From a virus, in the IMG/VR virus record IMGVR_UViG_3300035126_001490, positions 1-35,793 of that record: a stretch of 35,793 nt of DNA; one strand, written 5' to 3'. Both the position numbers and the translations under genes were made by a program. Numbering within the stretch: the stretch's first letter is position 1; each line of letters begins with the position of its first letter. Shown here piece after piece: positions 6,224-35,793 of the stretch. The notes below the pieces were generated by a model, which saw only the letters and a program-made list of their open reading frames with translations, was not told the origin of the DNA and ran no database searches.

Positions 6224-6245
6224 AGTTCAATTAGACGATAAGATT

Positions 6246-6276: not shown

Positions 6277-6308
6277 GCGTCTTCGGTTCAGGGGGGTAGA
6301 TGAGGCGA

Positions 6309-6753: not shown

Positions 6754-6823
6754 TCATCTCTAGTAACAGTTTTTTTAGCTGATCATACTTTATGTGCGCA
6801 TCAAAAGCGGCTACGCTAATTTT

Positions 6824-7360: not shown

Positions 7361-7408
7361 GAATCGTTACTTTGAGGCACGCTTATGCTAGCGGTTACAG
7401 ATAGGGGC

Positions 7409-8278
7409 TCAACTGGCTTGATTATCCGGAAGCATTTGGGCCAAGAGCTCTGGGGACGCAAGCTCAATCGGGCTATTCACATACTCAAACTCAGTCTGAA
7501 TATGCCGGAGCAGGTCACCCTGATCTTTGCCCTCAAACTTCTTCTGCTTCTCACCAGCCTCGATACCAAGCTTAGCCCAGCGCCTAGCTTCAGTCTCCCC
7601 CTCAGGAGTACCGTGACGAGCATAGTGCCTGAACTTGAAGTCGGCAGTAGCAAGCACGTTCCTCAGGAAGTCTATGTACTGCTTCTTTCCTGGGAGGCCT
7701 ACAAGATGTAGCACTTCGTCCTGAGGCTTTGTCAGTGCTGCATAGTATCGGGTGTAGCTGTAGCTATCGGCCTGAAGCTGACGCAGGAAGTAGAGCCAGT
7801 CCTGTTTGGTCATCATCTCGGTAGCTAGAAAGTACTTCTGATATATAAGAATTGTAGCCTCTGGTAGGGGGAGGCTAAAAGTCTGCGGTAGAAGCTCTGA
7901 TGCTTCGGCGGGCGTGAGTCTAGCTATTAGCGAGCAGTCAAGCGCCACACGCATGACAGGATGGCTGAGTAGCCTGCCTAGAGCCGTGAACGCATCCTTT
8001 TGCGCCTCAGTGCCTTTACCTACGCGTTTCTGATAAAGCTCCAAAAAGCCCAGCTTTTCCCACAGAGCTTCGTCCCCTTCAGTATAGAGACTTTTCTGAA
8101 GATTCCGTTTAGTGGAAGGAGGGACTCGGACCGTCTCATCTAGATGTGCCCTCAGTGCGCTGAGATAAGATGCCTCAGGCAGAGGAAACTGGATGCCATC
8201 GTAAAAGCGGCGAATGTCCTCGTCGGACTGCCCTTCTAAGATGAGCCAGGATAAGTGTTGACGAAACGGCAAAGACAT
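7409..8278 (-). CDS. hypothetical 289-residue protein, probably virion-related
   Basis: ATG 8278 is preceded (minus strand) by GGGGGTAG, a good ribosome site. The protein starts MSLPFRQHLSWLILEGQSDE, is mainly helical and ends LLAQMLPDNQAS. I see no catalytic motif, signal or membrane segment. It lies downstream of the 691-residue gene with 83 bases between, in the minus-strand structural block, so a virion or assembly role is plausible. It converges with the 6824-7360 gene with about 50 bases between and no obvious terminator. Confidence 0.75.
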   Translation of the reverse strand: MSLPFRQHLSWLILEGQSDEDIRRFYDGIQFPLPEASYLSALRAHLDETVRVPPSTKRNLQKSLYTEGDEALWEKLGFLELYQKRVGKGTEAQKDAFTALGRLLSHPVMRVALDCSLIARLTPAEASELLPQTFSLPLPEATILIYQKYFLATEMMTKQDWLYFLRQLQADSYSYTRYYAALTKPQDEVLHLVGLPGKKQYIDFLRNVLATADFKFRHYARHGTPEGETEARRWAKLGIEAGEKQKKFEGKDQGDLLRHIQTEFEYVNSPIELASPELLAQMLPDNQAS

Positions 8279-8361
8279 CTACCCCCAGAATGCCACGGGT
8301 AGAATAATGACGCAAATACTAAGGTATTAACCTGTCAATAGGAAATATATACCTTGAGGAG

Positions 8362-10437: not shown

Positions 10438-10565
10438 TTTACTTACCCCTTAGAGGTTTTAGGTATGTTCCGGTTTAAGAGTTTGACAGACTCTTTGGCA
10501 CCTTCCGAGACACACCGATAGGATTATTCTACTTTAACGGGCCCTTAAAGGCTAGGGAGGACTCG

Positions 10566-11108
10566 TCACATGGCGGGGAAGTTCTGAGGCAGCGGAAAGG
10601 GCGGTGAGGGAGGCGCTAACACCAGTCCTATGGTGAGGAATTTGAGCTGCGTTAAAGCATCGTGGAAGGCCTTAGCCATCTTTTTAGGGCCCTCTTTGTC
10701 AGTCTCTGCGGCTATCAAACCGCTCTGCAAGACTGTGTATGCCACCGCCAGAGTCGGGCACGCAGCCGCGACTGCGGGAGGGGTCTGTATGTCTGTCTGA
10801 GAGGCAGTCCAGCCAGGGAATGTGACAGTCCCGGGCTTGATCTGGCTTGCAAGCATAGCGGTCTGCCAATGAGTAGCCATGAGCATACCTCCAATCCCGT
10901 TAGCGGGGGCTGGCGGCATCGATTCAAGTAGCGATGCGAACAAGGACTCGTTGAACACTATTATGCCAGGCGTGCCCATAGGCCCCGCCTGCACGTCTGC
11001 TGTGTACTTACCTATGACGGCAGCCAGCTCCTTGCATCCCTTGCTTTTGTTATCTGCTGGTGGGAGCGCCTTAATATCGTTCTCAAGCGCTGAAGCTCCT
11101 TTAAGCAC
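10566..11108 (-). CDS. hypothetical baseplate-region protein, 180 residues
   Basis: The GTG at 11108 is the likely start: GAGG lies five bases upstream and overlaps the stop of the preceding gene (11116), so translation is coupled. The protein is alanine- and proline-rich and ends in a proline-rich tail (APPSPPFPLP). Short hydrophobic stretches are present, but none is a clear membrane helix. It follows the Ile/Pro repeat protein and the spike gene in one minus-strand run, which suggests a baseplate or spike-associated part. Family not recognised. Confidence 0.7.
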   Translation of the reverse strand: MLKGASALENDIKALPPADNKSKGCKELAAVIGKYTADVQAGPMGTPGIIVFNESLFASLLESMPPAPANGIGGMLMATHWQTAMLASQIKPGTVTFPGWTASQTDIQTPPAVAAACPTLAVAYTVLQSGLIAAETDKEGPKKMAKAFHDALTQLKFLTIGLVLAPPSPPFPLPQNFPAM

Positions 11109-11115
11109 GGTGACC

Positions 11116-11916
11116 TCATTCTGTATAAGTGGTGACGCTAACCTGAGGTACGGGCACCTCGATGTCCGGGAACTCCAAGTCTACACCTAGATTGGGCGGC
11201 GATATCCCCAGATCTGAAAAGTCTATCTTAGGGATTTCAGGCAGCGCTGGAATCGGGATCTCTGGAAGTTTAGGGATGCTGATCTCCGGTATTGGAATAG
11301 GAGGTATCACTGGTAGCGCTGGGATGGGTATAGATGGGATCGCGGGCAGCTCAGGTATTTTTATACCAGGGAACGACAGCCCTCCACCATCCGATGCGCT
11401 GACCCCCAGGCCGTCCAGTAGCTTGATAGAGGGTATCTCTGGAAGGGATATGCTAGGAATCTCGGGCAGCTTGGGGATGCTGATCTCTGGGATTGGGATG
11501 GGCGGTATTACAGGCAGGGACGGTATAGGTATGGCTGGTATTGCGGGTAAACTGACTGAGGGTAAACTGACTGAGGGTAAACTGACTGAGGGTAAACTGA
11601 CTGAGGGTAGGCCAGGCAGCTCAACGCCGGGTATACTTAGACCGGGTAAACCCAGATCTGGCAGATCGACTGTGGGTAGGTCTACTTGAGGTAGGCTGAC
11701 GCCTAAGCTACCCAAAGAGCTTATGGTCGGGATCTCCGGTAACGTGATACTGGGGATCTCAGGTAGCTTGGGGATGCTAATCTCTGGGATAGGAATGGGC
11801 GGTATTACAGGCAACGCAGGTATGGGTACCCTGGTCTCGCTTTCATAGAGTACCTTTTCCTTCTTAGTTTTTGAGTTGGTTGCTGATACTTTTACCTTTG
11901 TGACTAAGGTGGGCAT
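11116..11916 (-). CDS. Ile/Pro/Leu-rich repeat protein next to the spike gene
   Basis: The 266-residue product is almost wholly built of short (I/L/V)P units. Three near-identical blocks of about 32 residues lie at 31-62, 130-161 and 197-228, each containing PVIPPIPIPEISIPKLPEIP. Between them is SVSLP repeated four times (about residues 105-124). Such periodic proline favours an extended, fibrous form, not a globular one. It starts 16 bases after the spike gene stop and is coupled to 10566-11108. A tail needle, fibre or flexible linker is my inference. The first 28 residues (many Lys, Thr, Ser) are ordinary and may be the attachment end. No homologue recognised. Confidence 0.8.
   Translation of the reverse strand: MPTLVTKVKVSATNSKTKKEKVLYESETRVPIPALPVIPPIPIPEISIPKLPEIPSITLPEIPTISSLGSLGVSLPQVDLPTVDLPDLGLPGLSIPGVELPGLPSVSLPSVSLPSVSLPSVSLPAIPAIPIPSLPVIPPIPIPEISIPKLPEIPSISLPEIPSIKLLDGLGVSASDGGGLSFPGIKIPELPAIPSIPIPALPVIPPIPIPEISIPKLPEIPIPALPEIPKIDFSDLGISPPNLGVDLEFPDIEVPVPQVSVTTYTE
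11545..11604. repeat. four perfect 15-bp tandem repeats
   Basis: GGGTAAACTGACTGA is repeated four times without mismatch at 11545-11559, 11560-11574, 11575-11589 and 11590-11604. The unit is a multiple of three and encodes SVSLP on the minus strand, so copy-number change would lengthen or shorten the protein without a frameshift. Perfect identity suggests recent expansion. Confidence 0.95.
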
Positions 11917-11931
11917 GGGTGTTACCAGCTT

Positions 11932-13302
11932 TTACAGGTTTCCGCGTATCTTCACGTAGCTAGCCTTTGCGCTCTGCGCAGGGCTAGGTCCTGTCAGTGC
12001 CATCGTCATTGGGGGCAGCGGAGGACCTGATGGTCCCATCGCGGTCGCATGCATGTGGTTATCGAAAATCTTTTCAAGCATCTCGTAGATCACCGCATGG
12101 AATTGTGGCTTGTCGCCCAGATCGATAGCTCCACCCGCAATACTTACTTGAGGAGCCGACACGGTCACGCCTTTCGATGCCGTGATCTGGATCTTACCGT
12201 CCTGGCTCATGGTGATGACCTGACTTCCGCTAGCATCTATTAGGGTGAGGTTATCACTCACGATTGCTTTTGATCCTGATTTAGAAGTCAGAGCCACGTT
12301 GTCTTCTTCGAAGTTGAAGATGTTTCCGCTTGCGCTTTGGAGTATGACCTTCCCTTCTTTGGTTATCTGGATCAGCGCACCGCTTTTGTGCTGAAGCGTT
12401 ATGGACTCATTTCCTTCTTCATCGACGAACTTAAAGGAGTGTCCGGAAGGTGTGTTGAACGCGTATTGGCGGTTAGGGGCGCTAAACTGCTCTGAGTAGA
12501 ACCCGGTCTCTTCCGTTCCGACCTGGTAGTAAGATTGCTTTTTGAGTCGGGTGTCGATGGCGCCTTCTTCCGTGGCCTGTACGGTGATGCCAGGAACTTC
12601 TTCCAAAGTCAGGTCTTCTTCGTTCAGTAGACCCAGATCAAACCTAAATGGTACTTGAGTGGACTCAGCAGTTCCCATCTGCACCCGGGCTGCTTTTGTG
12701 GGGGTCAAGAAGTTGTCCTGCGCGAATACCTCTAATCGAGTGGCTCCATCAGGCAGATCTGACTCTTCTTCTGGGTTAGTCCACAGCAGCCTTCCGCCTA
12801 ACGTGCTCAGTTTGAAGTTGTGGCAGAGTGTAGAGATGACATTTTTTGAAGGGATCCAGTAAGTGCTGCAGTTCTCAGTGCTCTCAACAGTGATTGCCCC
12901 GCCGCTTCTTAGGGTAATCCTGTTTCCTGCTACGGTGGCTATAGTCCTGTCGCCCGTCTGCAGCGCCTCTTGGTTGGTTGAAGACCCCCCAGGTGTCGCG
13001 TCTCCGTCATCATCTTCAAAAGGCATGTAGCCGACAATGTACGGCTGGCTCCCTACAAACAGAATCACGCAGTAGCTATTCGTCCTTGGGATGTAGGTAT
13101 CCTCGTCACCCTGCGAATGCCATGCGTTGTGCAATATCTTTACATCATCCAGAACAAGACCGTCTGTGGATCCGTATGACCCAAGAGTCTGCACTGTGCA
13201 GATTCTTCTGGTGACGTCGACCGATTGAATCCATCCTATGCAGGCGTGTCCATCGAATCTACGACTGATTGTACCTTCCCACGCAGAACGCTCTCTTGCC
13301 AT
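11932..13302 (-). CDS. baseplate central spike protein (gpV/gp5/Mu gp45-like)
   Basis: The 456-residue protein likely forms the membrane-piercing spike below a contractile tail tube. Residues about 15-110 look like the OB-fold head (GWIQSVDVTRRICTVQTLG ... YCVILFVGSQPYIVGYMP). From about 310 the sequence becomes repeating beta strands (ITLQHKSGALIQITKEGKVI; VTVSAPQVSIAGGAIDLG), typical of a trimeric beta-helix. The tip has H416-x-H418 in DNHMHATAMGPSGPPLPPM, the histidine pair and GPSGPP pattern common to spike tips. ATG 13302 has AAGGTG eight bases upstream. No lysozyme domain is present. This is the best evidence for a myovirus-type particle. Confidence 0.85.
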   Translation of the reverse strand: MARERSAWEGTISRRFDGHACIGWIQSVDVTRRICTVQTLGSYGSTDGLVLDDVKILHNAWHSQGDEDTYIPRTNSYCVILFVGSQPYIVGYMPFEDDDGDATPGGSSTNQEALQTGDRTIATVAGNRITLRSGGAITVESTENCSTYWIPSKNVISTLCHNFKLSTLGGRLLWTNPEEESDLPDGATRLEVFAQDNFLTPTKAARVQMGTAESTQVPFRFDLGLLNEEDLTLEEVPGITVQATEEGAIDTRLKKQSYYQVGTEETGFYSEQFSAPNRQYAFNTPSGHSFKFVDEEGNESITLQHKSGALIQITKEGKVILQSASGNIFNFEEDNVALTSKSGSKAIVSDNLTLIDASGSQVITMSQDGKIQITASKGVTVSAPQVSIAGGAIDLGDKPQFHAVIYEMLEKIFDNHMHATAMGPSGPPLPPMTMALTGPSPAQSAKASYVKIRGNL

Positions 13303-13368
13303 AGAACTTTCACCTTAGGATCATCATACAAATTTTTTATCGCAGTAGGCAAAAACTTCCTGCACCTT

Positions 13369-13379
13369 GGAATAAGATA
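13369..13379 (+). promoter_or_regulatory. weak variant of the GGTATAAGTA element
   Basis: GGAATAAGATA lies 40 bases before the ATG of the first gene of the island, the same spacing as the exact copies, and resembles the element with one substitution and one insertion. It is the only candidate promoter in the 117-base gap. Confidence 0.3.
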
Positions 13380-13419
13380 TTTAGTGGTTAACCAGGATTA
13401 TTCAATAGTGGAGGGGAAT

Positions 13420-13791
13420 ATGGAACTAGAAGAAGCAAAAGAAGATCTTAGAAGGACCCGGGTCCGGCAAAAGGCTAACGCAAAAGTAAGCCTGTCGGAT
13501 CTTCAGCGCGAGTATGACCTGGCCAGCCTTGATTTGGCAGCGGCTCAGGCTCGGTTGACGAGTGTACAACAGAAAGTGCGTGAAAAAATACCTGAGTCCG
13601 AGGCAAAATTTAAACCCGGGGATCGAGTTTGGGTTGCGCCGCTCAGACTGTACGGCACGGTAAGGCGTGTACTGGGGTTCTCTATTCTGAACAATTCTAT
13701 AGGCGCACTGTATGAAGTGGAGTCGTGCCGTAGTGAAGTGTACCACGAGCTTCTACTTAGGGAGGCAACAAATGAAGCTAAAACCGGGTGA
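13420..13791 (+). CDS. coiled-coil plus SH3/KOW-like small protein
   Basis: ATG 13420 follows GAGGGG (13411-13416). The longer frame back to 13225 is antisense to the spike gene and was rejected. Residues 1-60 are charged heptad-like helix (MELEEAKEDLRRTRVRQKAN ...). Residues about 64-80 begin a small beta domain, KFKPGDRVWVAPLRLYG, of the type seen in SH3-like/KOW modules that bind nucleic acid or protein. The end overlaps the next gene by 20 bases. It forms an operon with two more small genes before ssb. Confidence 0.7.
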   Translation: MELEEAKEDLRRTRVRQKANAKVSLSDLQREYDLASLDLAAAQARLTSVQQKVREKIPESEAKFKPGDRVWVAPLRLYGTVRRVLGFSILNNSIGALYEVESCRSEVYHELLLREATNEAKTG

Positions 13792-14050
13792 TGTCGTATC
13801 TGTCTACGGGCCATGCACTGCCATGGACTGGCACGACGGTAGGAAGTCATACAAAGTTTTGTCGGTGGATGATTCTGACGGGTCTGTGGAGATTGAGGTT
13901 GGCAGTAAGAAGCACTGGCCTGATGTCTGTGAAGTGCATGAAAGGCAGTGCGAGCTGAAGAAAACCAAACAGAAGAAAGGGGAGAGAGATGGACTGGGAA
14001 CAGGAAAGAATAAGTCTGGGAAACGGGCTGTTTCGAAGTCGAAACGGTGA
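13772..14050 (+). CDS. SH3/KOW-like small basic protein
   Basis: ATG 13772 has GGGAGG seven bases upstream, within the previous gene. The 92-residue protein begins MKLKPGDVVSVYGPCTAMDW, echoing the KPGDRVWVAP segment of its neighbour, and ends in a very lysine-rich tail (KNKSGKRAVSKSKR). The tail suggests nucleic acid binding. The shared KPGD(R/V)V motif hints that the two genes carry related domains. Function otherwise unknown. Confidence 0.65.
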   Translation: MKLKPGDVVSVYGPCTAMDWHDGRKSYKVLSVDDSDGSVEIEVGSKKHWPDVCEVHERQCELKKTKQKKGERDGLGTGKNKSGKRAVSKSKR

Positions 14051-14375
14051 TGTACACGCTTGTGAGGTGTTTATCTTCAAGAGAAGTCTCATTCCAGATG
14101 TGTATGTGAAGTTCTACTCTGATAAAACGGAATTTGAACTCTACGAGGATGACTACTTTAAGGTAGACCTGATGCACTTTCTGCAGCGAATGGGATACAA
14201 GGGCCACCACTTTGATCGCGCAGAACTTGGGATGCAAGGACACAACTTCGTGGTGTTTGAGCCCGGAAAGTCTTTTGAGTCGTTCGCTAAGAAGCTTGGC
14301 TGGATTGATGAAGCTGGCCCAGATCCTGTAGGCGAACAGCAAGAACTTTTTCAGGACAATTCGCTGCTTCACTAG
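13989..14375 (+). CDS. hypothetical 128-residue protein
   Basis: ATG 13989 follows GGGGAGAGAG and overlaps the preceding gene by 62 bases. The frame is kept to its own stop at 14373-14375, where the ssb promoter begins. The protein is soluble, aromatic-rich and mixed alpha/beta (DVYVKFYSDKTEFELYEDD). No motif recognised. The large overlap is unusual, but both frames have good ribosome sites. Confidence 0.65.
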   Translation: MDWEQERISLGNGLFRSRNGDVHACEVFIFKRSLIPDVYVKFYSDKTEFELYEDDYFKVDLMHFLQRMGYKGHHFDRAELGMQGHNFVVFEPGKSFESFAKKLGWIDEAGPDPVGEQQELFQDNSLLH

Positions 14376-14384
14376 GTATAAGTA
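14375..14384 (+). promoter_or_regulatory. GGTATAAGTA promoter element, copy 3 (ssb)
   Basis: Exact copy whose first base is the last base of the previous stop codon. The ssb ATG lies 61 bases after the element. It is followed immediately by a perfect hairpin and a palindrome in the leader. Confidence 0.75.
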
Positions 14385-14388
14385 TTCC

Positions 14389-14422
14389 AGAGCAGCAAGG
14401 TCGCTGCTCTGTTGTCGACAAC
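14389..14422 (+). promoter_or_regulatory. ssb leader: 8-bp hairpin and 12-bp palindrome
   Basis: AGAGCAGC (14389-14396) pairs perfectly with GCTGCTCT (14403-14410). The next twelve bases, GTTGTCGACAAC (14411-14422), are a perfect palindrome. Both lie between the promoter element and the ribosome site (GAGAGGAAA). A 5' stabilising hairpin or a protein operator is likely. Confidence 0.6.
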
Positions 14423-14445
14423 ACAAACAAGAGAGGAAACACAGT

Positions 14446-14838
14446 ATGTACCAGAAATTGATTTTGGTCGGAAGACTCGGACAAGACCCAGAACTGAAGA
14501 CAGTCGGACAAGATCCACTCTGTAAGTTCTCAGTAGCTACGTCTAACGTGTGGACTGACCAAGCCGGTCAAAAGCATGAAGACACTACGTGGCACAACGT
14601 GGATGTTTGGGGTAAGCCCGCCCAGAACTGCGCAACCTACTTGAAGAAAGGTTCGCTGGTGATGGTTGAGGGTGAAGTGAAAATTACGAAGAAGGAAGAC
14701 AAGACATTCTACGGCGTGAAAGCTTACAACGTCAGATTCCTGTCGCCAAAGACTGAGGGAGCCGGGACAACTGGAATCTCGCAGGCCACTTCTGCTCCAG
14801 CGGCGACTACCTTCACCGAGAACGACATTCCGTTCTGA
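14446..14838 (+). CDS. ssb: single-stranded DNA-binding protein
   Basis: The 130-residue product coats single-stranded DNA in replication and recombination. It begins MYQKLILVGRLGQDPELK and has the OB-fold landmarks WHNVDVWGKPAQNCATYLKKG and VMVEGEVKITKKEDK. A short Ser/Ala/Thr-rich linker leads to the acidic tip NDIPF, the partner-binding tail of bacterial SSB. It is shorter than typical cellular SSB (about 160-180 residues) because the linker is brief. It is under its own GGTATAAGTA element, and no terminator separates it from the following non-coding unit, so its transcript may extend to 15204. Confidence 0.93.
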   Translation: MYQKLILVGRLGQDPELKTVGQDPLCKFSVATSNVWTDQAGQKHEDTTWHNVDVWGKPAQNCATYLKKGSLVMVEGEVKITKKEDKTFYGVKAYNVRFLSPKTEGAGTTGISQATSAPAATTFTENDIPF

Positions 14839-14861
14839 CAGCCCAATACTATGATGTATCG

Positions 14862-14871
14862 GGTATAAGTA
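14862..14871 (+). promoter_or_regulatory. GGTATAAGTA promoter element, copy 4 (non-coding unit)
   Basis: Exact copy 23 bases after the ssb stop, extended to GGTATAAGTAAAGTA like copy 2. The next 330 bases hold no convincing gene but are rich in secondary structure and end in a terminator. Confidence 0.7.
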
Positions 14872-14877
14872 AAGTAA

Positions 14878-15204
14878 GGGATAGTTAGTAGTAGCTCCAA
14901 ACAGGTCAAAAATAACTTTGCATGTAAGTTATATTTCATCTTTTGAGTGGCTACGAATGCTATTGCACTTACTCAGTAACCATCACACCCAGAATCTTAA
15001 TCTGTTTAAACATCCGTTCCAGTGACTGGGCGGCAATACGATACGTTGTTACTTGTAAAGCAACTTTACAAGTCTGGTGGATTAGGGTTCTGGGTAGTGA
15101 GTTACAGAGTGGGTTGCGCCACCTGTATCCCCTAACGTGCACGTTGGGGAGATATGGGTGGCGGTAACCCTAACCGCAAGCTCGGGAAACCCCCGAGATT
15201 TTTT
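14878..15204 (+). ncRNA. putative structured non-coding RNA, about 325 nt
   Basis: The unit is bounded by the promoter element at 14862 and the terminator at 15181-15204. A perfect 10-bp hairpin ACTTGTAAAG-CAA-CTTTACAAGT lies at 15051-15073. A long imperfect hairpin spans 15111-15170: GGGTT/AACCC, GCCACC/GGTGGC, TGTAT/ATATG (with G-U pairs), CCCC/GGGG and AACGT/ACGTT pair in order around a GC loop, about 25 pairs. An alternative stem GCGGT/ACCGC (15161-15177) would compete with its base. The only frame of any length starts at a TTG (14943) without a ribosome site. The 5' end is inferred. It could also be the 3' part of the ssb transcript. Confidence 0.6.
15181..15204 (+). terminator. intrinsic terminator of the structured RNA
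   Basis: CTCGGG (15181-15186) pairs with CCCGAG (15192-15197), followed by ATTTTTT. On the opposite strand the same T-run bases form the stop region of the convergent gene ending at 15203. Confidence 0.8.
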
Positions 15205-15724
15205 AGTAGTATTGATTACCGCTGTAAACAACTGGCGGCGGGGTTTGCGGCTGTGGATCGTTCCCCCCACCTAGGGCTGCCTGCATAGCTCCGTAGGCAG
15301 CAACACCTGTTAGGACGGGATGGCGAGCGGCAAATGACGGTCCTTTGGGTTTGTTTTTTAAGTCACGCACGCGCTGTGCCCGCTCGGTGGCTTTTTGCAA
15401 AGCGTCATTCGCGGTGTTGAAGTGTTCGCTCGGTGTCATTTGAGGGAGGCCTTGCTGCGCGCGGCGAGCTGCTTCACGCTGAACGGCACCTTCGGCGTAG
15501 TTTTGGCCAAAGGGGGTCTTCCCTTTAGCTGCCCTAAATCCTTCGGTGAAGTTACTGAGGCCCTGGGTTTGGATATTCCTAGGTTTGAAAGGCGCTTTTA
15601 TTGCGTTCTTAGCGCTTCTTGCCGCCGCCGAGAGTGACCCCGCAGCCTGTCCCATCCTGCTACCTACCGTAGACATTAGGCCTCCGAACATGGCCTCTTT
15701 TTTAAATCCTTGTGTGAATCCCAT
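15203..15724 (-). CDS. small virion-like protein with GFxK tag
   Basis: The 173-residue protein starts MGFTQGFKKEAMFGGLMSTV, with the N-terminal tag shared by four other proteins here. It is rich in Ala, Gly, Lys and Arg, with a weakly hydrophobic Ala/Gly helix near the C-terminus (HPVLTGVAAYGAMQAALGGG), and ends GNQYY. Its ATG overlaps the stop of the polymerase gene (TAATG), so the two are translationally coupled. It may therefore accompany the polymerase in the particle. Function unknown. Confidence 0.75.
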   Translation of the reverse strand: MGFTQGFKKEAMFGGLMSTVGSRMGQAAGSLSAAARSAKNAIKAPFKPRNIQTQGLSNFTEGFRAAKGKTPFGQNYAEGAVQREAARRAQQGLPQMTPSEHFNTANDALQKATERAQRVRDLKNKPKGPSFAARHPVLTGVAAYGAMQAALGGGNDPQPQTPPPVVYSGNQYY

Positions 15725-18700
15725 TAGTAGCTCTCTTTCTTCTTACCAAAGCTTGCGCCGTATGCGAATGCCGGGACGGGGTGCCGGCCTTCTAACTGAC
15801 TGGACCAGCTTTCGGCGGCTCCTTGAGTCAATGCTTGCTTGACGTATCGGTACCCAAGTTGACTCATCCAGTCCTTTCTAAGAAGGGGTATCCTAGTAAT
15901 ACCCTCTAGCTGGGGGGTATGTACAATAGGGTCTTTTACTACCTCAATCTTACCATTCTGAGCCGCGGATTTCAGCTTGGGAAGGTCTCTGTCGGTAATT
16001 TCATGGAACTTGGGTAGGTTTCCTACTGGGTTTGCTAGGTTGTAGCCAACGGCGTCTTCGGGCCGTACCGATACCTTCCGGCTTTCGTTGTAGTGCTCGG
16101 CCGCCGTGAAAGGGATTAGGTCTCCTGGTAAAACCCCTGCGTGTCTTGGGGCGTTTTTGACCAGAGTGCTGTCAGCAACGGACCTGACCACAGTCTCGAA
16201 TACTTTGCGGTGAGTATTCACGCCTTGGTCGACAAAGGTCCTTTTTAGCTCGTCTACAATGTATTCCTGAGCCGCTCCCATGCCTTTTTGCTTCAATAAC
16301 TTATGTGGGTTTAAAACGCCTTCTGACAGTTTATCCCCCGCTTGAACACTCTCTCCCACTTTTACGGCGGGGTTCAGACCTGGGCGTACTGTGTGCAGCT
16401 TTTCCCCCACATGAATGTGAAATCCTCCGGCAGGGCTCCGTCCTATTTTGGTGACCTTACCCGCGACATCTGCCGTGGTTGCTTCACCGGAAACGTACTT
16501 AGGCATGTTCAGCAAGTCAGACACACGCTTGAACCCGGAAACCTGAGGGGCTCCGCTAGAGACCCCGCCGGTGTGGAACGTACGCATCGTCATTTGAGTG
16601 ACGGGCTCACTCATTGTCTGGCCCATCTTAGCCCCGATGTTCTCTCCGATCTCGGGGCGCTTTCCGTGCTCATCTATCCCGAAGCAGTGCGCACAAGTCC
16701 CTTTAGTCTCTAAACACTTTAAAGGTGACCGGACTGTCAAAGTCTTGACCCCGCCCCTCTTCATGACGCTGAGGAGCTGTGGAGTCACTTGAGTATTTCG
16801 AGCGGATCCGTGCTGGTCGTGCGCAAGATAGCGATCCATTATGTCTGTACTGTCTACAGACATAACGGTCCCTTTTTTGGTTCCGCAATCATCGGCGCTT
16901 ACTAGATTGTTGATAGTGGCGGCCATGATATCCTTGTTCAGCGCGCCGGGCTTGGAGGTGGCTAGAGCTCGGTCGATCATCCCTTTGCGCACTCCGTACG
17001 CGCTGACAAAGTAGTCTGAGGTAGTTACCCCCTCCGCGTAAGATTTCTTGATGGGAACGGGAACTTTCCTGTCCTTTGCGTCCATAAGTATGCCCGGAGC
17101 AGAGACAATCTGCATAAGCTGAGAGTCGCTGCCGCGAGCCCCGCTGGAGACCATGTGGTAGAAGTTGTTGTCTGTTTTCTTTAGTTGGTCTTTGGTGCGG
17201 TTGTAGGCCTCTTTTGCGACGCCTTCGTACATGTCCGCAATTTTCTTGTCCAACTCAGGCCCGGGCTTGTGCGCTCTACGTAGCGCCGCAGCTTGCTGAT
17301 CTGCGCGATGGAATAGGGTGTCGCGCATCTTAGTATCGATTTGTAGATCTTTTATGGAAGTCGTAAAGCCGCGCTCGTAGGCGTGCTCGTCGCCCATCAA
17401 TTTCAGCTTCTGGACTAGGTTAGGGAACTCTTTCGGCAGCTCGCGCGCCAGCTGGTTATAGAGCGTCTTGGATTTCTTACCATCCAGGCTTTCCGAGACG
17501 TGGTATTTCGGAGGTAGTACGGAGTTGAGTTTTTTACGCCCCTCAGGGTTTTGTGACATGAAATAGATGCCAATCTGGCTTTCCTGCGAGGGTACAGTCA
17601 TCAACTCTCCGGTGCCTGGCTTGAATAGATTCTGCGAAGGCAACATCTTGTGACTCTCTCGCAGCGCCTCTTCTGTGGTGGGCACGTGGATGTTGACCGC
17701 GTCTCCGTCGAAATCCCCGCCGTATCCTTTAAGAACCAGGGGCGGGACTTTAATAGCCAGGCTGTCCGTAAGGACGGGCTTGTGAGCCATGATCGAGAAC
17801 TTATGAAGCGATGGCGCGCGGTTCATTAGAACGGTGCGCTGCTTCATCGTGTCCATGAGCATTTTCTTAGCCAGAGGAGTTTTGGCCTCAATCTCTTTTC
17901 TAGCAAAGTCAGATTTATATCCGTTCTTACCAAACTCTCGGATTACGAACGGATTGAATACCTTCCAGGCCATTTTCTCCGGAACCCCAATCTCGTCCAT
18001 GTGGAGCTCCGGACCCGCTGTAATAACTCCTCGGCCAACCAGATCCTGTCGTTTGCTCAGGAGCTTTTGGATAAAAAAGCCCTGCTTTGGAGTTTCATTT
18101 GCGATCTCGTCGATAAACCCATTGATAGGCTGGTCTTTGCCGCGCGTAAGGACGGGCTCAAGCCCTGCGACCGCTCGGGTGGCTTTATAGGTCTCGTTTC
18201 GTATCTCTCCCTTGACCCTGTCTGGAAGGAACTTCATCACCGGGTATTTCGAAGTCTCCGTTAATATACCCACGTTCTGGTAGAGCAGGTTTGGAGACGC
18301 TACGACAATCCCTCTGTCCTTGCTTTCTTGGATGGGTCGGAACATCGGCGGTATTACCGGGATATGCTGTCTTAGATAAGCCTCGTCAGGCTTCATTCCC
18401 AGATCATCCAGCGCCTGTAGTATTCGTATTTTTTTATTTAGGCCGTCTAGGTGCCGGGGGTCACTAGATTTCCTCAGCAGCGCACGCGTTTTGGTCAGCT
18501 CACCTTGGACATCGATGTTTTTGAGAAGGGACTCGAAAGCTTTGCCTCCAGTCAGACTCCCTTCTGTTTTCTCGCCGGATATTTTTCCATCCTTGGAAAG
18601 ATGGCGTGTACCCGCAATCAGACCCTCGTAATCAGGCTGCTTGATACCGGCTAGGTTTTTAATAGCCGACTCAAAAACCGGGTTGGGTAGTTTTTCGGAT

Positions 18701-21700
18701 AGGCTCATGTGCGCGTACCGATTACCGTTCATGCCGCCGGTTATGCGCACGTCAAAGAAACCGTTAGGTATTTCCTTCATGTTTTTCGCGTAGAAAAACT
18801 GAGGATCTGTGATCTGCCCGTTGCTGATTTTCTTTACGTCTTCGTCAGTCATGGGGGCCAGACGCACTTCGTTTCCAACTTTGTGCGTGTTGACGCCTGC
18901 GCCCCGTATCATGTGCAGAAACTTCTGATAGGCGAAGCTTTCCTTTGGCGGGGGGAGTGGGCGCCCCTGCTCCAGGGCCCTCCAGAACTCATCGTTTCTC
19001 TCAGACTTGATGTGCGCATCGAGGAGGTTCTTTTTTGCTCCGTGAGAGAGCATTGAATAGAAGGTGAGCTGGTCTAGGGTCTTAGTCCCCTCTTCGCCGC
19101 CTTTGATTGGCTGTAGGTTGGCGTCGTACCCCTCTCCGGGCATACGAGCTGAGAAGCCAGCCTTACCAGTTTTGGCGAGGCGCAGGATATGAGGCATGCC
19201 TACGTGCACGTCACCGATCTTCTTACCCTCGGGGGTGTACATAGTTTCAACGTCAGAAATCCCGTGCTTCTTAAGTTCGTCTAGAATTTTCTTATTAGTA
19301 TTTTCGGCGGAGAAGTTTTTGATCTTGTACGGCTGTCCCACTTTAGCCGCAATCTTTCCAGCCGCCGACTCGTATAGCTGGCCTAGGTTAATACGGCCGA
19401 CGACTCCGTGCGGATTGAGAAACACATCAGGAACAGAGCCGTCCGAGAATTTAGGAGCATCTTTGTCTGCGATGACTTTGGTAATGACTCCTTTGTTCCC
19501 GTGAACGCCCGATAATTTGTCCGACTCTTTTGCAGGCTCTACTGCCTTGACGTACACAAGGACTTCGCTGCCCCTCTTAGCGATATCGGTAACTACTCCA
19601 GGGAACTCTCCGTTGTAAGTCACGGAGGCGTTCGACCACGGCATGATCAAACTTTTGTTTAGTTTTCTCAGGCTCATGTTTTCTGGGTTGTTTAAGTTGT
19701 AGTGCAGTCCTGCAATCAAGACCTGGCCCGGCTGAACTACCTGACCCTTTTTGATAATTCCGCTATCGTCGTACTTGGTGACGTCATCCTTTTTTAGGAT
19801 GTTAGGATAATATCCCAGGAATCTTTTGAAGTTTAACTCCGTCTTTCCTTTTTCAAGCGGGAATCCTTGCTTGTATATCTGCTCTGCTGCCAATTTTTTG
19901 GCGGCACTCTCAGTGATGACAATTCCGTCTTCGAACGTGAGTCCGGGGTACGGAAGATACGCTACCTTGAGGTTAGTGCCTAATGCGAGCTGGCCGTTTT
20001 TGGTGAAATTACTGTCCGCAACTACCTGACCCCCCTTCACTCTATCCCCCACTTTTACCGTAGGGGTGTGGTGCAGGTGAGTTTTTTGGTTTAGCGGGAA
20101 GTTATTGTATAGAGGAACTTTCTTGCCGCTAATCTTAATATGGTCTGGGGTTATTTCTTGGACCACCCCATCATTAGTCGCCTTGGCTGAAAACTCGCTT
20201 CCGATAAGCTCATGGAAAGTTTTCTTGTCGTCCACAAGTGTCTGTACCAGAGGGGCTTCGCGGTGCACCAGCGGCAGGGTCTGGCCAAGCATCTTGGCGG
20301 CCATCACCGCGCGGTTACCTTGGTCGTTCTTTAGGAAAGGTACCAGATTGGTGGCGTAGCTGAACAGCCGTGAGGCCTCTGGTATTACGTAGTCGACTTG
20401 CTTGGATGGTACTACAGACACCTTACCTTCGTGCTGGACCCGCACCTCAGCCGCATTTCTGAACTTGGCTTCGTGGATCTCATCAGGGAACGCAACGACC
20501 TTGGAGTGCAGCTCTCGGGGGGTAAGAAATTCCAGTTTTCCAGTCCTTACATTTTTAACAGCCGTCCTAAGCTCGCGGCCGTCTTTAATCACGCCGGCAG
20601 ACATGTGCATGGTCGTGCCGATTTTCTCGCTTTCTGGAGTATGCACTGGATCTATATATCCAAGGTGTGACGGGTGGACCTCGCGCAAGTTGTCCGCCAC
20701 GGCATGCGCACTTGTAATGCCTCCAGTACCATGAACAGTTAGCTTGTTCATTTCGGAGATCATGTGGACTGGATTATACTGCTCCGGAGTAGAAGTTCTA
20801 TTGTCACTGACGAAGAAGTTTTCAACGGGCGACGTCAGTTTGCGGAAGTCGATCATCCGCTTTAGGTTATTGCGGGATCCTAAGTGGCGCGACAGCATCC
20901 GTTTAAGAGCGTCCTGCTCTTTCTTGCTACCTAGCTTGTCGTGGATCATGTCCTCGACTGATCTTATTTCTTTGAATAGCAGGTTCTCTGGGTCGTCGGC
21001 CTGCGCCTTACCTTGATAGGCAGCGAGGATCTTGCCCGAAGTGTCTAGTAGTAGCTTAGATGACAGCTGACTGTGCTCGTGACCCAAGGTCATCCCGGTT
21101 ACCTTGGGGTCAAGTTGCGTCGTCTTTGCATACTCGCGTAGCTTTTCTTGGGCGGTGCTTGCGTTGTCTGTGGTTGCTTTGGCCAGCTTGTCCGCAAATC
21201 CGATAATATGCTGGGGCGACTCGCGTTTGTTCGCTGCAAAAACCTGTTCACCCCAGGCTTTGATCATGTCGTTGTCAGAAGCTCCGAGCGCTTTCAGCAA
21301 CGGATACAGGGGCTTGTGAGATCCCCCGACTTTAATGGTGTATCTGTTTGTGCTCGGGTCTAAGTTTATATCAAAGTTTTGCGTGCGCTCCCCGCCCAGA
21401 GAGATCATTCCTTTGAAAGTATCTCCCTTCTGAGACCTGACTACATAGGCCCCCGGTTTACGGATCATCTGGTTTGCAACCTGATATTCGTTGCCCTTAA
21501 CGATAAATGAGTTTCTCGGGGTCAGTTTCGGTATAGTGGACAGCTTTACCTTATCTAGCCTGTCTACGATCTTACCGTCGGGATCCTTAAGGACGAGGCT
21601 TGCGTACACCGGAAGTCCCCACGTGCCGCCCCCTAGTTTGGTTTTTTTCTGCGACGTGTAGTCCTGAGTGTCCAGCTCACGCTCGTCAACCCAGATCTTG

Positions 21701-21810
21701 GCAAGCTCCATCCGGTGACCGTTTTTCTCAACGGGGAACAGCTGCTGGTACGCCCCAATGACCTCGTCGGTCAGTGCCTTAAATTGATCGGATCCGGAAA
21801 GTGTTCTCAT
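15724..21810 (-). CDS. single-chain beta/beta-prime DNA-directed RNA polymerase
   Basis: The 2028-residue protein joins both large subunits of a multisubunit-type RNA polymerase. The beta half (about 1-1030) has FIVKGNEYQVANQMIRKPGA, REVHPSHLGYIDPVHTPES, PFLKNDQGNRAVMAAKMLGQ, GLTFEDGIVITES and LSGVHGNKGVI. The beta-prime half follows with VGRGVITAGPELH, LMNRAPSLHKFSIMAHKPVL and the catalytic Mg site DFDGD (1366-1370). It also has a bridge helix (YFVSAYGVRKGMIDRAL, about 1597), zinc cysteines C1642/C1699/C1706/C1709 and a trigger-loop helix (TMRTFHTGG, about 1740). It is far shorter than E. coli beta plus beta-prime (about 2750), and the beta-prime N-terminal zinc finger is missing. No full alpha, omega or sigma is seen nearby. 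All main active-site elements appear intact. Placement among virion genes allows packaging in the particle. Confidence 0.95.
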   Translation of the reverse strand: MRTLSGSDQFKALTDEVIGAYQQLFPVEKNGHRMELAKIWVDERELDTQDYTSQKKTKLGGGTWGLPVYASLVLKDPDGKIVDRLDKVKLSTIPKLTPRNSFIVKGNEYQVANQMIRKPGAYVVRSQKGDTFKGMISLGGERTQNFDINLDPSTNRYTIKVGGSHKPLYPLLKALGASDNDMIKAWGEQVFAANKRESPQHIIGFADKLAKATTDNASTAQEKLREYAKTTQLDPKVTGMTLGHEHSQLSSKLLLDTSGKILAAYQGKAQADDPENLLFKEIRSVEDMIHDKLGSKKEQDALKRMLSRHLGSRNNLKRMIDFRKLTSPVENFFVSDNRTSTPEQYNPVHMISEMNKLTVHGTGGITSAHAVADNLREVHPSHLGYIDPVHTPESEKIGTTMHMSAGVIKDGRELRTAVKNVRTGKLEFLTPRELHSKVVAFPDEIHEAKFRNAAEVRVQHEGKVSVVPSKQVDYVIPEASRLFSYATNLVPFLKNDQGNRAVMAAKMLGQTLPLVHREAPLVQTLVDDKKTFHELIGSEFSAKATNDGVVQEITPDHIKISGKKVPLYNNFPLNQKTHLHHTPTVKVGDRVKGGQVVADSNFTKNGQLALGTNLKVAYLPYPGLTFEDGIVITESAAKKLAAEQIYKQGFPLEKGKTELNFKRFLGYYPNILKKDDVTKYDDSGIIKKGQVVQPGQVLIAGLHYNLNNPENMSLRKLNKSLIMPWSNASVTYNGEFPGVVTDIAKRGSEVLVYVKAVEPAKESDKLSGVHGNKGVITKVIADKDAPKFSDGSVPDVFLNPHGVVGRINLGQLYESAAGKIAAKVGQPYKIKNFSAENTNKKILDELKKHGISDVETMYTPEGKKIGDVHVGMPHILRLAKTGKAGFSARMPGEGYDANLQPIKGGEEGTKTLDQLTFYSMLSHGAKKNLLDAHIKSERNDEFWRALEQGRPLPPPKESFAYQKFLHMIRGAGVNTHKVGNEVRLAPMTDEDVKKISNGQITDPQFFYAKNMKEIPNGFFDVRITGGMNGNRYAHMSLSEKLPNPVFESAIKNLAGIKQPDYEGLIAGTRHLSKDGKISGEKTEGSLTGGKAFESLLKNIDVQGELTKTRALLRKSSDPRHLDGLNKKIRILQALDDLGMKPDEAYLRQHIPVIPPMFRPIQESKDRGIVVASPNLLYQNVGILTETSKYPVMKFLPDRVKGEIRNETYKATRAVAGLEPVLTRGKDQPINGFIDEIANETPKQGFFIQKLLSKRQDLVGRGVITAGPELHMDEIGVPEKMAWKVFNPFVIREFGKNGYKSDFARKEIEAKTPLAKKMLMDTMKQRTVLMNRAPSLHKFSIMAHKPVLTDSLAIKVPPLVLKGYGGDFDGDAVNIHVPTTEEALRESHKMLPSQNLFKPGTGELMTVPSQESQIGIYFMSQNPEGRKKLNSVLPPKYHVSESLDGKKSKTLYNQLARELPKEFPNLVQKLKLMGDEHAYERGFTTSIKDLQIDTKMRDTLFHRADQQAAALRRAHKPGPELDKKIADMYEGVAKEAYNRTKDQLKKTDNNFYHMVSSGARGSDSQLMQIVSAPGILMDAKDRKVPVPIKKSYAEGVTTSDYFVSAYGVRKGMIDRALATSKPGALNKDIMAATINNLVSADDCGTKKGTVMSVDSTDIMDRYLAHDQHGSARNTQVTPQLLSVMKRGGVKTLTVRSPLKCLETKGTCAHCFGIDEHGKRPEIGENIGAKMGQTMSEPVTQMTMRTFHTGGVSSGAPQVSGFKRVSDLLNMPKYVSGEATTADVAGKVTKIGRSPAGGFHIHVGEKLHTVRPGLNPAVKVGESVQAGDKLSEGVLNPHKLLKQKGMGAAQEYIVDELKRTFVDQGVNTHRKVFETVVRSVADSTLVKNAPRHAGVLPGDLIPFTAAEHYNESRKVSVRPEDAVGYNLANPVGNLPKFHEITDRDLPKLKSAAQNGKIEVVKDPIVHTPQLEGITRIPLLRKDWMSQLGYRYVKQALTQGAAESWSSQLEGRHPVPAFAYGASFGKKKESY

Positions 21811-32221: not shown

Positions 32222-32851
32222 TTACTTACGGTTTTGGTAAGCTATCTCTGAGCCCAGGTCGTGGGCGAAGTGCTTGAGCTCATCTAGTTTCTTAGGCTTA
32301 TCTATAGGACTTAACCAAGTCAGAAACAGAACTCCGTACATCTTACCGTACTGGTTTCTGACAGCCGTCATAGCAACGGTGTGACATCCGGTAGCGCGCA
32401 GTGAGTCCTTCATCGCAAACTCATCCGGCAAATCCTCGACTGAGCTAAACATTATATTCTCAGCCTCTTTAATCCTATCCAGACAGTGAAGCATCACACT
32501 TACCGGGATATTTAGATAAGGATTACCGTTACTTACAGGAGAGCTAACTCCGCGTTTGAGCGCGAAGTGCGTTATAGAAAGTTTCTGAACGCTCTCTCCA
32601 GATAGGAAGTAGTCGCCATTGTGAAACTGAAATAGCTTAACCCGATCGCAGTCAAACACACCCCTACACTCGTACAGGAGAGCCTGCAGGCGAAGGTTAC
32701 GGTTAATGACATTCTCAACACTAAAGAACGCTTTAGCTTCAATTTTCTTTTTGGCTGCGGACAGTATGTAGATGCCCGCCGCCATTAAAATGGCGCCCAG
32801 CACACCCCCAGCCTCGGTGGCTAGGCTTGTGATGTTAAATAAAGACTCCAT
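32222..32851 (-). CDS. membrane-anchored protein with a GAF-like domain
   Basis: The start is ATG 32851 (MESLFNITSLATEAGG); a TTG six bases earlier is possible. A transmembrane helix lies at about 16-34 (GVLGAILMAAGIYILSAA), then a linker helix, then a soluble domain with DRVKLFQFHNGDYFLSG and YGKMYGVLFLTWLSP. That layout recalls GAF-like sensory domains that I associate with phage and bacterial membrane proteins. No histidine kinase or cyclase part is present. Role unknown. Moderate confidence in the domain, low in any function. Confidence 0.6.
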   Translation of the reverse strand: MESLFNITSLATEAGGVLGAILMAAGIYILSAAKKKIEAKAFFSVENVINRNLRLQALLYECRGVFDCDRVKLFQFHNGDYFLSGESVQKLSITHFALKRGVSSPVSNGNPYLNIPVSVMLHCLDRIKEAENIMFSSVEDLPDEFAMKDSLRATGCHTVAMTAVRNQYGKMYGVLFLTWLSPIDKPKKLDELKHFAHDLGSEIAYQNRK

Positions 32852-32918
32852 AAACAAACACCCGCCTTAACTTGTAGTTTACACAAGCAAGCAAGCAACC
32901 TCTAGACTAGGTAGGAAT

Positions 32919-33692
32919 TTAAGGTTTGGGCTGGATCGTATCCGCTATCCATTGGAAGACCTGACTGACTTTAGAGTAAACTCCAAATCGTTGAGGCCTT
33001 GCACATCCGTAGCCCCAGCTAACAACACCTACTAAGAGGGGAGTCCCATCCTCCATTTGGACTAGAAGGGGGCCGCCGCTGTCTCCCTGACACGAGTCTT
33101 TCCCGCCCTCGTCGAGTCCCGCACAAATCATGGTGTCCGTAATATCCCCTGGATATGCGGCCTGGCATTTTTCATCGGACTGGATAGGGACCTCTACTTT
33201 CATTAGGACCGGCGCAGCTCCGCCGCCCTCGTATAGTGATCCCCAGCCAGCAGTAATCGCCGCGAGGTCATCCAAAGGATCAAGAACTCCTCCGTCTCCG
33301 TTTAGCTGGATCGGGCTAAACCTAGAGGAGCCTTCGAGCTCGATCAGAGCGTAATCGTGATCGAACTGATTGCGAGACTCATAACTTGGGTGCTTAATCA
33401 CTTGCTTGATCTTAAACATCTCAGGCGGAGCTTCGCGAAGTCTGTGATGGCCGAGTGCGACAACCCCGCTAGCCTGGAGTCCTGGAAGGATACAGTGGGC
33501 GGCCGTTAAAACCCAGTTAGGGGCGATAAGCGACCCGCCACAAAAATGACTGCCTGTAGGAGAGCGTCTGAGAGAAGTCATGAACGGAAACTCGCCGGGA
33601 GTGGCCTCCACTCCTCCTACAATAAGAGGCTGCGGGGCCCAGGCAGTTGTAGTGGCTAATAGAAGCAGGATTGCAGATAACCGTGAAACCAT
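32919..33692 (-). CDS. secreted trypsin-like serine protease (S1A)
   Basis: The start is ATG 33692, since GGAGG lies five bases upstream; an earlier ATG at 33704 lacks this. The 257-residue protein has a signal peptide (MVSRLSAILLLLATTTAWA), then a short propiece and the mature S1 start IVGGVEATPGEFPF. The catalytic triad is His66 (TAAHC), Asp113 (DHDYALI) and Ser205 (GDSGGP). Asp199, six residues before Ser, gives trypsin specificity for Lys/Arg. Three canonical disulfide pairs can be drawn (Cys51-67, 176-190, 201-230). Activation would need cleavage after Leu, not Lys/Arg, so it would not activate itself. A near-consensus promoter element lies upstream. An intact secreted trypsin is unusual in a phage. 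Confidence 0.92.
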   Translation of the reverse strand: MVSRLSAILLLLATTTAWAPQPLIVGGVEATPGEFPFMTSLRRSPTGSHFCGGSLIAPNWVLTAAHCILPGLQASGVVALGHHRLREAPPEMFKIKQVIKHPSYESRNQFDHDYALIELEGSSRFSPIQLNGDGGVLDPLDDLAAITAGWGSLYEGGGAAPVLMKVEVPIQSDEKCQAAYPGDITDTMICAGLDEGGKDSCQGDSGGPLLVQMEDGTPLLVGVVSWGYGCARPQRFGVYSKVSQVFQWIADTIQPKP

Positions 33693-33729
33693 ACCGCCCT
33701 CCATGGCGAAATGATCGAGCAGGTTGGAC

Positions 33730-33739
33730 TACTTATACT
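33730..33739 (-). promoter_or_regulatory. near-consensus promoter element on the minus strand
   Basis: The minus strand reads AGTATAAGTA, one base from the consensus, ending 37 bases before the protease ATG, the same spacing as the plus-strand copies. It is the only close minus-strand match noticed in the window. Confidence 0.6.
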
Positions 33740-33816: not shown

Positions 33817-34374
33817 ATGAGTTACCTACACCACAAGCCTGTACCGAAGATCGTCCGCCCCCTCAAAGAGGAATGGTTCTTAGATATTCAGACGCACATT
33901 CGCGAGCTGCGTAGGGTATTCGACTGGCCCGGCGTTGCCTACCACGATAAGAGCTCCGATCCTCACGATGTCTTTAATAGATGGGTATGGTACAACCTGC
34001 CGCTACTTGTACGGTACCACCACGATCCGCAGTTCATTGCGTACGTATCCGATCTAGCTGGAAGACCTGTTAAGCCTACCTACGTATTCACTTCTATGTA
34101 CGGCGCAGACGGGATCTGCCCTCTACACGTCGACCGACCCCAGTGCCAGTTTTCAGTCGACATGCTTGTCGCGTCGAACCACAAAGACAAGCCATGGCCG
34201 ATATATGTCGAAGATGAGCCTTACATTCTGGAGCGGCCCGGAGATGCCGTCTTCTACTCCGGCACGGGCCAGAAGCACTACCGCAACCCCATGAAAGAAG
34301 AGTCGGATGCAACTAAAGTTGACCTCGTATTCTTTCACTTCGCCCCTATTGAGTGGCAAGGGGAGCTTAAGTAA
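33817..34374 (+). CDS. 2-oxoglutarate/Fe(II)-dependent oxygenase-like protein 1
   Basis: The 185-residue protein has the double-stranded beta-helix landmarks of 2OG-Fe(II) oxygenases. The iron ligands are H104-x-D106 (CPLHVDRP) and distal His154 (GTGQKHYRNP), with a nearby Arg156 and the turn ERPGDAVFYSG before it. Substrate is unknown; aspartyl/asparaginyl or prolyl hydroxylation of a protein is typical for this size. ATG 33817 has AGGAG upstream, and its stop overlaps the next gene's start by one base (TAATG). No exact promoter element is seen before it. Confidence 0.75.
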   Translation: MSYLHHKPVPKIVRPLKEEWFLDIQTHIRELRRVFDWPGVAYHDKSSDPHDVFNRWVWYNLPLLVRYHHDPQFIAYVSDLAGRPVKPTYVFTSMYGADGICPLHVDRPQCQFSVDMLVASNHKDKPWPIYVEDEPYILERPGDAVFYSGTGQKHYRNPMKEESDATKVDLVFFHFAPIEWQGELK

Positions 34375-34985
34375 TGAAAAACAATTTCGTAATATTCCCT
34401 CAGACTTTCGAAGGGTATACGAAAGTGTGTCACTACAGCAGAGCGTCCTCTACGCCTGAGTACTTTTTTACGGAGGATGAATGTGATCGTATTGTCGGCC
34501 TCTGGAACGAAGACTCTAAGTCTGAGGCGGCAGTTTCACCCGACGGCTCTAAAGGGTCCGTTAACAAGGAAACTCGAAGGGCGGATGTAAACTGGCTTGG
34601 TTATTCACCAGAAACAGCGTGGATTTATGAAAAGCTCTATAGAGTGGTAGAAGACGCCAATAAGTTCAGGTTCAGGTTCGATCTGGCAGGGTTCTTTGAA
34701 GATCTTCAGTTAACTAGGTACAAAGACGATGGAGGCCATTATACCTGGCACGAGGACAGTGGATCTGGCATGTTCTCGATTAGAAAACTAAGCGTGGTCG
34801 TGCAGCTCTCCTCCCCCGAAGATTATGAGGGAGGCGAGCTGGAAGTACATGGTCATGGCCCGTGCTTGAAGGAGCGTGGTGCTGTATTTGTGTTTCCTTC
34901 TTTTGTAACCCACAGGGTTACTCCTACTACTAAAGGCATCAGACACTCCCTCGTGGCGTGGGTATCAGGCCCGGCCTTTAGATAA
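34374..34985 (+). CDS. 2-oxoglutarate/Fe(II)-dependent oxygenase 2 (prolyl-hydroxylase-like)
   Basis: The 203-residue protein matches the P4Hc/PKHD pattern: H126-x-D128 in YTWHEDSGSG, then RKLSVVVQLS and YEGGELEVHG. RGAVFVFPSFVTHRVTP follows with distal His180, and finally Arg190 (GIRHSLVAW) for the 2OG carboxylate. All ligand positions are present, so it is probably active. It is translationally coupled to the first oxygenase. It converges with the glycine-rich fibre gene, the two stop codons lying side by side at 34983-34988. Modification of that fibre or of a host protein are both possible. Confidence 0.88.
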   Translation: MKNNFVIFPQTFEGYTKVCHYSRASSTPEYFFTEDECDRIVGLWNEDSKSEAAVSPDGSKGSVNKETRRADVNWLGYSPETAWIYEKLYRVVEDANKFRFRFDLAGFFEDLQLTRYKDDGGHYTWHEDSGSGMFSIRKLSVVVQLSSPEDYEGGELEVHGHGPCLKERGAVFVFPSFVTHRVTPTTKGIRHSLVAWVSGPAFR

Positions 34986-35793
34986 CTATATTCTAGTTTT
35001 GTAGCCCGTGCCTGGTATAGGTCCTGACGGGGTGTATGCCGGAGCGCTGCCATCTGCTGTCTGCGAGGCGTAGTTAGACCCTGAAGTGATGAATCTTACA
35101 TGGGCGCGGCCACCGCTGCCGGTTCCCCCATAGCCTTCTCCCACTCCCGGGGCTGTCTGCCCTCCTATACCTGTCTGTCCTCCACCGCCACCAGCCGGGG
35201 CATTTCCTCCTACGTTAGCGCTTGCACCATTCCCACCAGTTCCTCCACCGGCGCCCGCACTGTTTAAAGTGCCTACGGAATATTCGCTTGCTATTACATA
35301 GATATACCCGCCGGCGCCACCGCCGCCGCCACCTCCGCCGCCACCTCCGCCGCCACCGCCACCGCCGCCGCCGCCATAAACATAAGTCCAAGGGGCGGGA
35401 GCTGCTGTGTTAGCGCCTCCTCCGTTGCCGCCAGCCCCAGCCTGACCCCCTGCACCTCCAGGACTCCCTCCATTGGCGTAGCTTGTTATGTAACCGAGGT
35501 TTATTTTATTGCATATCAGCAAGGCGGAGCCTCCTCCGTTTCCGCCACTACCGCCGCCAGTGCTTGCATTTCCTCCACCGCCAGCGTACCCGTACTGCGC
35601 TTTTAAGTAGTATGTAGAACTTGTAGGGTAAGGAGGCGAGTTATCTATGATGCCCCCACCCCCGCCGGGCGAAAATCCCGAGGGCCTTGCATTGTAACCC
35701 CCACCCGCGCCCCCGCCACCACCGCCACCACCGCTGCACCCAGCGGCTCCCCAGCCACCTGGAGGGTACGCGGAGGCGAAACCCCAAGAAATA
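34986..35793 (-). CDS. glycine-rich fibre-like protein (5' end beyond the window)
   Basis: The minus frame is open from the right edge to TAG at 34986-34988, at least 268 residues. It is dominated by glycine, including an uninterrupted run of more than ten Gly (about 35317-35370) and many GGxGG stretches. Short normal segments lie between (AQYGYAGGG; GGYIYVIASEYSVGT) and a non-repetitive end (YTPSGPIPGTGYKTRI). Polyglycine regions of this kind occur in phage tail-fibre tips and adhesins. An internal TTG at 35522 is not a plausible start because the glycine-rich reading continues upstream. The N-terminal attachment part is outside the window. Confidence 0.78.
   Translation of the reverse strand, partial: ISWGFASAYPPGGWGAAGCSGGGGGGGGAGGGYNARPSGFSPGGGGGIIDNSPPYPTSSTYYLKAQYGYAGGGGNASTGGGSGGNGGGSALLICNKINLGYITSYANGGSPGGAGGQAGAGGNGGGANTAAPAPWTYVYGGGGGGGGGGGGGGGGGGGGAGGYIYVIASEYSVGTLNSAGAGGGTGGNGASANVGGNAPAGGGGGQTGIGGQTAPGVGEGYGGTGSGGRAHVRFITSGSNYASQTADGSAPAYTPSGPIPGTGYKTRI

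Follow-up and report, generated by a model that had tools for sequence, protein, structure and literature searches.

The 35.8-kb stretch of viral DNA analysed here (the window), an IMG/VR virus record and probably a fragment of the genome of a large, uncultivated virus of bacteria, carries on its minus strand a gene for what is apparently an exported, active trypsin of peptidase family S1A. The gene seems to have been taken from bacteria related to the predator Bdellovibrio or to Elusimicrobia, as judged from its closest cellular relatives. Comparable trypsins occur in several other, unrelated environmental phages, which makes such enzymes a neglected type of phage cargo and not an isolated curiosity.

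The trypsin gene and its predicted product

The open reading frame at the locus, as called mechanically, opens at an ATG at position 33704 and encodes 261 residues. A Shine-Dalgarno-like GGAGG (33698–33702, minus strand) lies 5 nt ahead of a second ATG at 33692, which is also the end coordinate given in the first-pass annotation; because of this GGAGG the second ATG is the likelier start, and it yields a pre-pro-trypsin of 257 residues (32919–33692, minus strand); the residue numbers used below are those of the 261-residue form (P0001). The plus strand of the same region is interrupted by many stop codons. The protein matches the full Pfam Trypsin profile (PF00089) with an E-value of 7.8e-59. 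Its translation starts with a Sec signal peptide, MVSRLSAILLLLATTTAWA (33636–33692), with an uncertain cleavage point, since a proline at position +1 may shift the cut to between TTA and WA. Translation and alignment place next a short propeptide, PQPL (33624–33635), that has to be cut off before IVGG, followed by the mature domain (32922–33623), which was delimited by alignments with bacterial homologues and crayfish trypsin.

In a 13-member alignment of the phage protein and 12 bacterial trypsins, the catalytic residues His70, Asp117 and Ser209, equivalent to residues 57, 102 and 195 of chymotrypsin, are invariant (codons 33495–33497, 33354–33356 and 33078–33080, minus strand), and in the phage enzyme they occur in the contexts TAAHC, D-x-ALI and GDSGGP. 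The S1-pocket residue Asp203 (codon 33096–33098, minus strand), the equivalent of chymotrypsin Asp189, is invariant in the same alignment; together with Gly216 and Gly226, found in the segments WGYG and RFGVY, it forms a signature that predicts specificity for Lys and Arg. Six cysteines are also invariant (55/71, 180/194 and 205/234), corresponding to the conserved pairs 42–58, 168–182 and 191–220. The signal peptide, IVGG start, triad, S1-pocket aspartate and three disulfides listed by the first-pass annotation are therefore all present in the translation, the Pfam match and the alignment. The features of a zymogen likewise appear to be in place by alignment, in the form of the junction between PQPL and IVGG and of Asp208, the equivalent of Asp194.

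The earlier claim that a different protease is needed for activation holds up as a prediction, self-cleavage being unlikely at a P1 leucine. The same residue is found in several close bacterial relatives (L017, L022 and L217–L220), and some trypsins of Bdellovibrionota carry Leu or Met before IVGG (RPL, KPL, KPM, SGL). The non-trypsin activation site is therefore a pre-existing trait and no invention of the phage.

The phage trypsin matches 559 distinct sequences in the PDB, of which crayfish trypsin is the best. An AlphaFold2 model (mean pLDDT of 80) superimposes on solved S1A structures with TM scores of 0.8–0.9, and the fold thus predicted is the two-barrel chymotrypsin fold. Crayfish hepatopancreas trypsin (PDB entry 2f91) and other animal S1A proteases have this fold and all catalytic landmarks in common with the phage protein, but at ∼40% identity they are less similar to it than the bacterial homologues (50–55%). 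Animal origin or contamination was ruled out, because the bacterial homologues are much closer.

Genomic setting and the repeated promoter-like element

Among the products encoded in the window are a fused β-β′ RNA polymerase, a terminase with an intein and a portal protein. A portal search retrieved five contigs at 56–60% identity, the largest of 182 kb, and a further three at 36–37%, and gene order is kept across most of the window in comparison with five related large phage contigs. The trypsin gene is bordered on one side by a gene for a membrane protein with a weak GAF-like domain (32222–32857, minus strand; phrog_14038), which has a 33–36% match in the relative G001. On the other side are two plus-strand genes, one matching phrog_2954 (33817–34374; labelled ferrochelatase in PHROG) and one for a 2OG-Fe(II) oxygenase (34374–34985; Pfam match and phrog_61), and then a minus-strand gene, cut by the contig end, for a Gly-rich and probably fibre-type protein (34986–35793) comparable to the fibre proteins of G001.

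Several other features of this phage lineage were observed. The terminase large subunit (3227–6223, minus strand) is split by a LAGLIDADG intein, and the matches in G004 and G005 also span the intein region. The single-chain RNA polymerase (15724–21810, minus strand; 2028 residues) shows ∼30% identity to that of Vibrio phages D69, D148 and D181. Within the structural block, degenerate Pro/Ile/Leu repeats (IPALPVIPPIPIPEISIPKLPEIPSI) make up almost the whole of a protein encoded at 11116–11916 (minus strand). A motif at the N-terminus, M-x(0-3)-F-x-x-G-F-x-[KR]-x-A, is common to many proteins of the lineage, most of them short, and is perhaps a packaging or targeting tag; it occurs in the window at 6824 (plus strand) and at 15724, 22815 and 26746 (minus strand), and in the relatives G001, G002, G003, G004 and G005 in 9, 4, 17, 10 and 10 copies, respectively. 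Both large relatives contain tRNAs with a CUA anticodon (L101, 4045–4119; L110, 14918–14995), which are possible amber suppressors.

The promoter-like element GTATAAGTA (33730–33738, minus strand) precedes the start codon of the trypsin gene by 37 bp. The window contains seven exact copies of this sequence against 0.07 expected, a number reached in none of 100 shuffles, and it is the most frequent 9-mer in the noncoding DNA of the window. Six copies are on the plus strand, at 1534, 3039, 14376, 14863, 21875 and 28913, and one is on the minus strand (33738–33730). Five of the seven are located 37–61 bp upstream of a gene on the same strand, an SSB-like gene (14446) and the trypsin gene among them, and a longer form, CGGGTATAAGTA, is found upstream of genes in G001. 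The trypsin gene is the only minus-strand gene of the window with an exact copy; the minus-strand structural genes have none. It is probable from this pattern that GTATAAGTA is a promoter element of the phage's own transcription system. The near-consensus promoter that had been assigned to the trypsin gene did not survive: a sigma-70 scan of the upstream region gave no minus-strand site, and such a promoter was dropped in favour of the repeated, phage-specific GTATAAGTA.

None of the eight related viral contigs carries a trypsin gene (PF00089), two of these being 175 and 182 kb long and most of the eight being fragments; the gene is therefore regarded as variable, dispensable cargo. Its absence from the relatives, as well as its position only 2.1 kb from the contig end, would also fit a chimera in which a bacterial gene was fused to a phage contig at assembly. 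However, because phage-type genes flank the trypsin gene on both sides and the GAF-like neighbour has a relative in G001, the gene most probably lies within a phage genome. The GTATAAGTA copy directly upstream, a GC content of 54% that is near the 47–53% of the neighbours, and the finding that the best bacterial homologues are only 50–55% identical also argue against a chimera, which is thus highly improbable. The misassembly against which the first-pass annotation had cautioned is accordingly not indicated by the sequence.

Cellular relatives and trypsins of other phages

The best cellular matches of the phage trypsin, in a tblastn search of ∼85,000 species, are in Bdellovibrionota and Elusimicrobiota, with identities of ∼50–53% that are well above those of other phyla; over aligned columns the identity to these trypsins rises to 55%. 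A close homologue is present in 49 of 368 Bdellovibrionota genomes. In three trees the phage trypsin grouped with the Bdellovibrionota/Elusimicrobiota clade, with support of 99/91 to 100/99 (100/88 in the first), which agrees with the bacterial, predator-like origin suggested earlier. The phage branch is long and its place inside the clade unsure, AU tests rejecting neither a union with Elusimicrobiota (p 0.59) nor one with six outgroup rows (p 0.42).

The secreted S1A trypsins of Bdellovibrionota (among them L007, L010, L026 of B. bacteriovorus, L217 and L218) are 50–55% identical to the phage trypsin, which resembles them in being a single-domain protein with a short propeptide, triad and S1-pocket aspartate. 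In contrast to these cellular genes, that of the phage has a phage promoter-like element in front of it, and its branch in the tree is long. In Elusimicrobiota, the secreted trypsins (L008 among them) reach up to 55–56% identity and belong to the same supported clade, but differ in having long propeptides with Lys or Arg before IVGG.

Among 50,697 GenBank phage records only one weak S1-like match was found, the serine protease gp109 of Rhodococcus phage Shagrat, an unrelated phage of an actinobacterium; its identity is 28% across 77% of the query length. No PHROG family matches the phage trypsin, and none of the literature searched describes a secreted trypsin encoded by a phage. In contrast, a profile-based scan of IMG/VR detected related trypsins on 49 contigs; these represent several phage types that are not related to one another, the phage context being checked in a handful of the contigs. 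The rarity in phages stated by the first-pass annotation thus applies to GenBank and cultured phages and not to IMG/VR. About 30 of the 49 contigs look like one marine-type group, a label that derives from the phage type and not from sample records, and the 12 of these entered in the tree form one clade. Their trypsins (L244–L273 and L280) are also phage-encoded and exported, with mostly hydrophobic residues before IVGG (PM or PF), and are encoded in AT-rich genomes. They differ from the trypsin of the window in their lipoprotein-type signals, in an identity of 39–45%, in forming a separate clade (100/99) and in a T4-like replication region, the contigs read in detail having T4-like PolB and clamp loader genes near the trypsin gene. 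A common viral-clade origin with these trypsins was rejected, as they form a separate clade.

The other viral trypsins are scattered at several places in the tree. The neighbours of the trypsin gene are tail sheath and T4 baseplate genes in L274, a gene for a baseplate hub in L276, one for an S78 prohead protease in L279 and one for a phage lysozyme in L285. Since viral trypsins occupy several positions in the tree, phages appear to have acquired secreted trypsins more than once. Their recurrence in unrelated phages suggests a benefit; against a lasting benefit in the present phage family is the finding that no lineage-mate carries the gene.

Proposed role and significance

The trypsin gene is, with reasonable likelihood, auxiliary cargo that the phage acquired and that is read from a promoter of the phage, with a product that is exported as a zymogen, activated between QPL and IVGG by another protease, and used for protein digestion outside the cytoplasm. 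The gene would have passed from the Bdellovibrionota/Elusimicrobiota pool into a large tailed phage with its own fused β-β′ RNA polymerase, where it came under the control of a promoter-like element common to other phage genes. The infected host would then make the pre-pro-enzyme, export it via the Sec pathway and remove the signal peptide, after which another non-cytoplasmic protease would cut between PQPL and IVGG to release active trypsin. The enzyme would cleave after Lys and Arg in the periplasm, in the surroundings or, in the case of a predatory host, in the prey, and the most likely gain for the infected cell would be amino acids or a softening of surrounding protein. We infer the expression, activity and activation route of the trypsin, as well as its host and benefit, from the sequence.

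An accessory function in lysis or release, in which a periplasmic zymogen is activated at lysis and digests envelope or released protein so that the progeny spread or avoid debris, is unlikely. The export signal and the latent zymogen with its non-trypsin activation site would suit this function, and the phage-specific promoter-like element would permit timed expression, but no holin, endolysin or spanin family was detected among the tested neighbours of the trypsin gene, the presence of GTATAAGTA before the SSB-like gene (14446) suggests pre-late expression, and a lineage-wide need should have kept the gene in the relatives, where it is absent. Processing of fibre or adhesin proteins that are themselves exported by the phage lineage, or another role at the virion surface, is very doubtful. 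The trypsin gene is ∼1.3 kb from the Gly-rich fibre-like gene, and several fibre-like proteins of G001 and G002, encoded at the corresponding genome end, start with signal peptides; however, these relatives lack the trypsin, and the cytoplasm is the usual site of fibre assembly in tailed phages. A secreted protease of broad specificity might also strip receptor proteins from neighbouring cells or debris, limiting the loss of virions or blocking superinfection. Such a role would account for the independent acquisition by several phages, but we give it little weight. Particle maturation, put forward in the first-pass annotation, is improbable for a Sec-exported enzyme; an S1A fold with a signal peptide, encoded at the fibre end, does not correspond to the cytoplasmic S78, U9 or U35 types beside capsid genes, and a prohead maturation protease was rejected.

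A more specific form of the digestive role would have a Bdellovibrio-like predator as the host and, in the phage, a trypsin of the host's own prey-digesting type, with which breakdown of the prey continues during takeover and feeds phage growth. Trypsin-like enzymes are secreted by B. bacteriovorus (PMC7174725). This scenario is an improbable one, and three comparisons did not establish Bdellovibrio as the host. No relative of the portal was found in 368 Bdellovibrionota genomes, in a search run without a positive control. In tetranucleotide composition, the window and G001 correlate most strongly with Bdellovibrionota and G005 with Pseudomonadota, and G003 is undecided. The GAF-type neighbour gene has weak matches in two of 357 Bdellovibrionota genomes and in none of 149 Elusimicrobiota genomes. 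Signal peptides are unusual on tailed-phage fibres; in the relatives, fibre-like proteins and lipoproteins start with signal peptides (G001, 8327–16068; G002, 5125–9854; L096 and L115). Such fibres are reminiscent of the MAT fibres of Bdellovibrio (PMC10769870). A link between the two was rejected, as only generic fibre-repeat matches occur in Bdellovibrionales genomes.

The auxiliary genes known from phages are mostly metabolic. An exported protease that is complete, has a zymogen switch and was apparently gained by several phage lineages on separate occasions suggests that phages act on proteins outside the infected cell, by means of a digestive enzyme nearly missing from the records of cultured phages. 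The phage trypsin is a small enzyme and as such directly testable. If the host is a predatory bacterium, a virus would be tied to the digestion of yet another organism.
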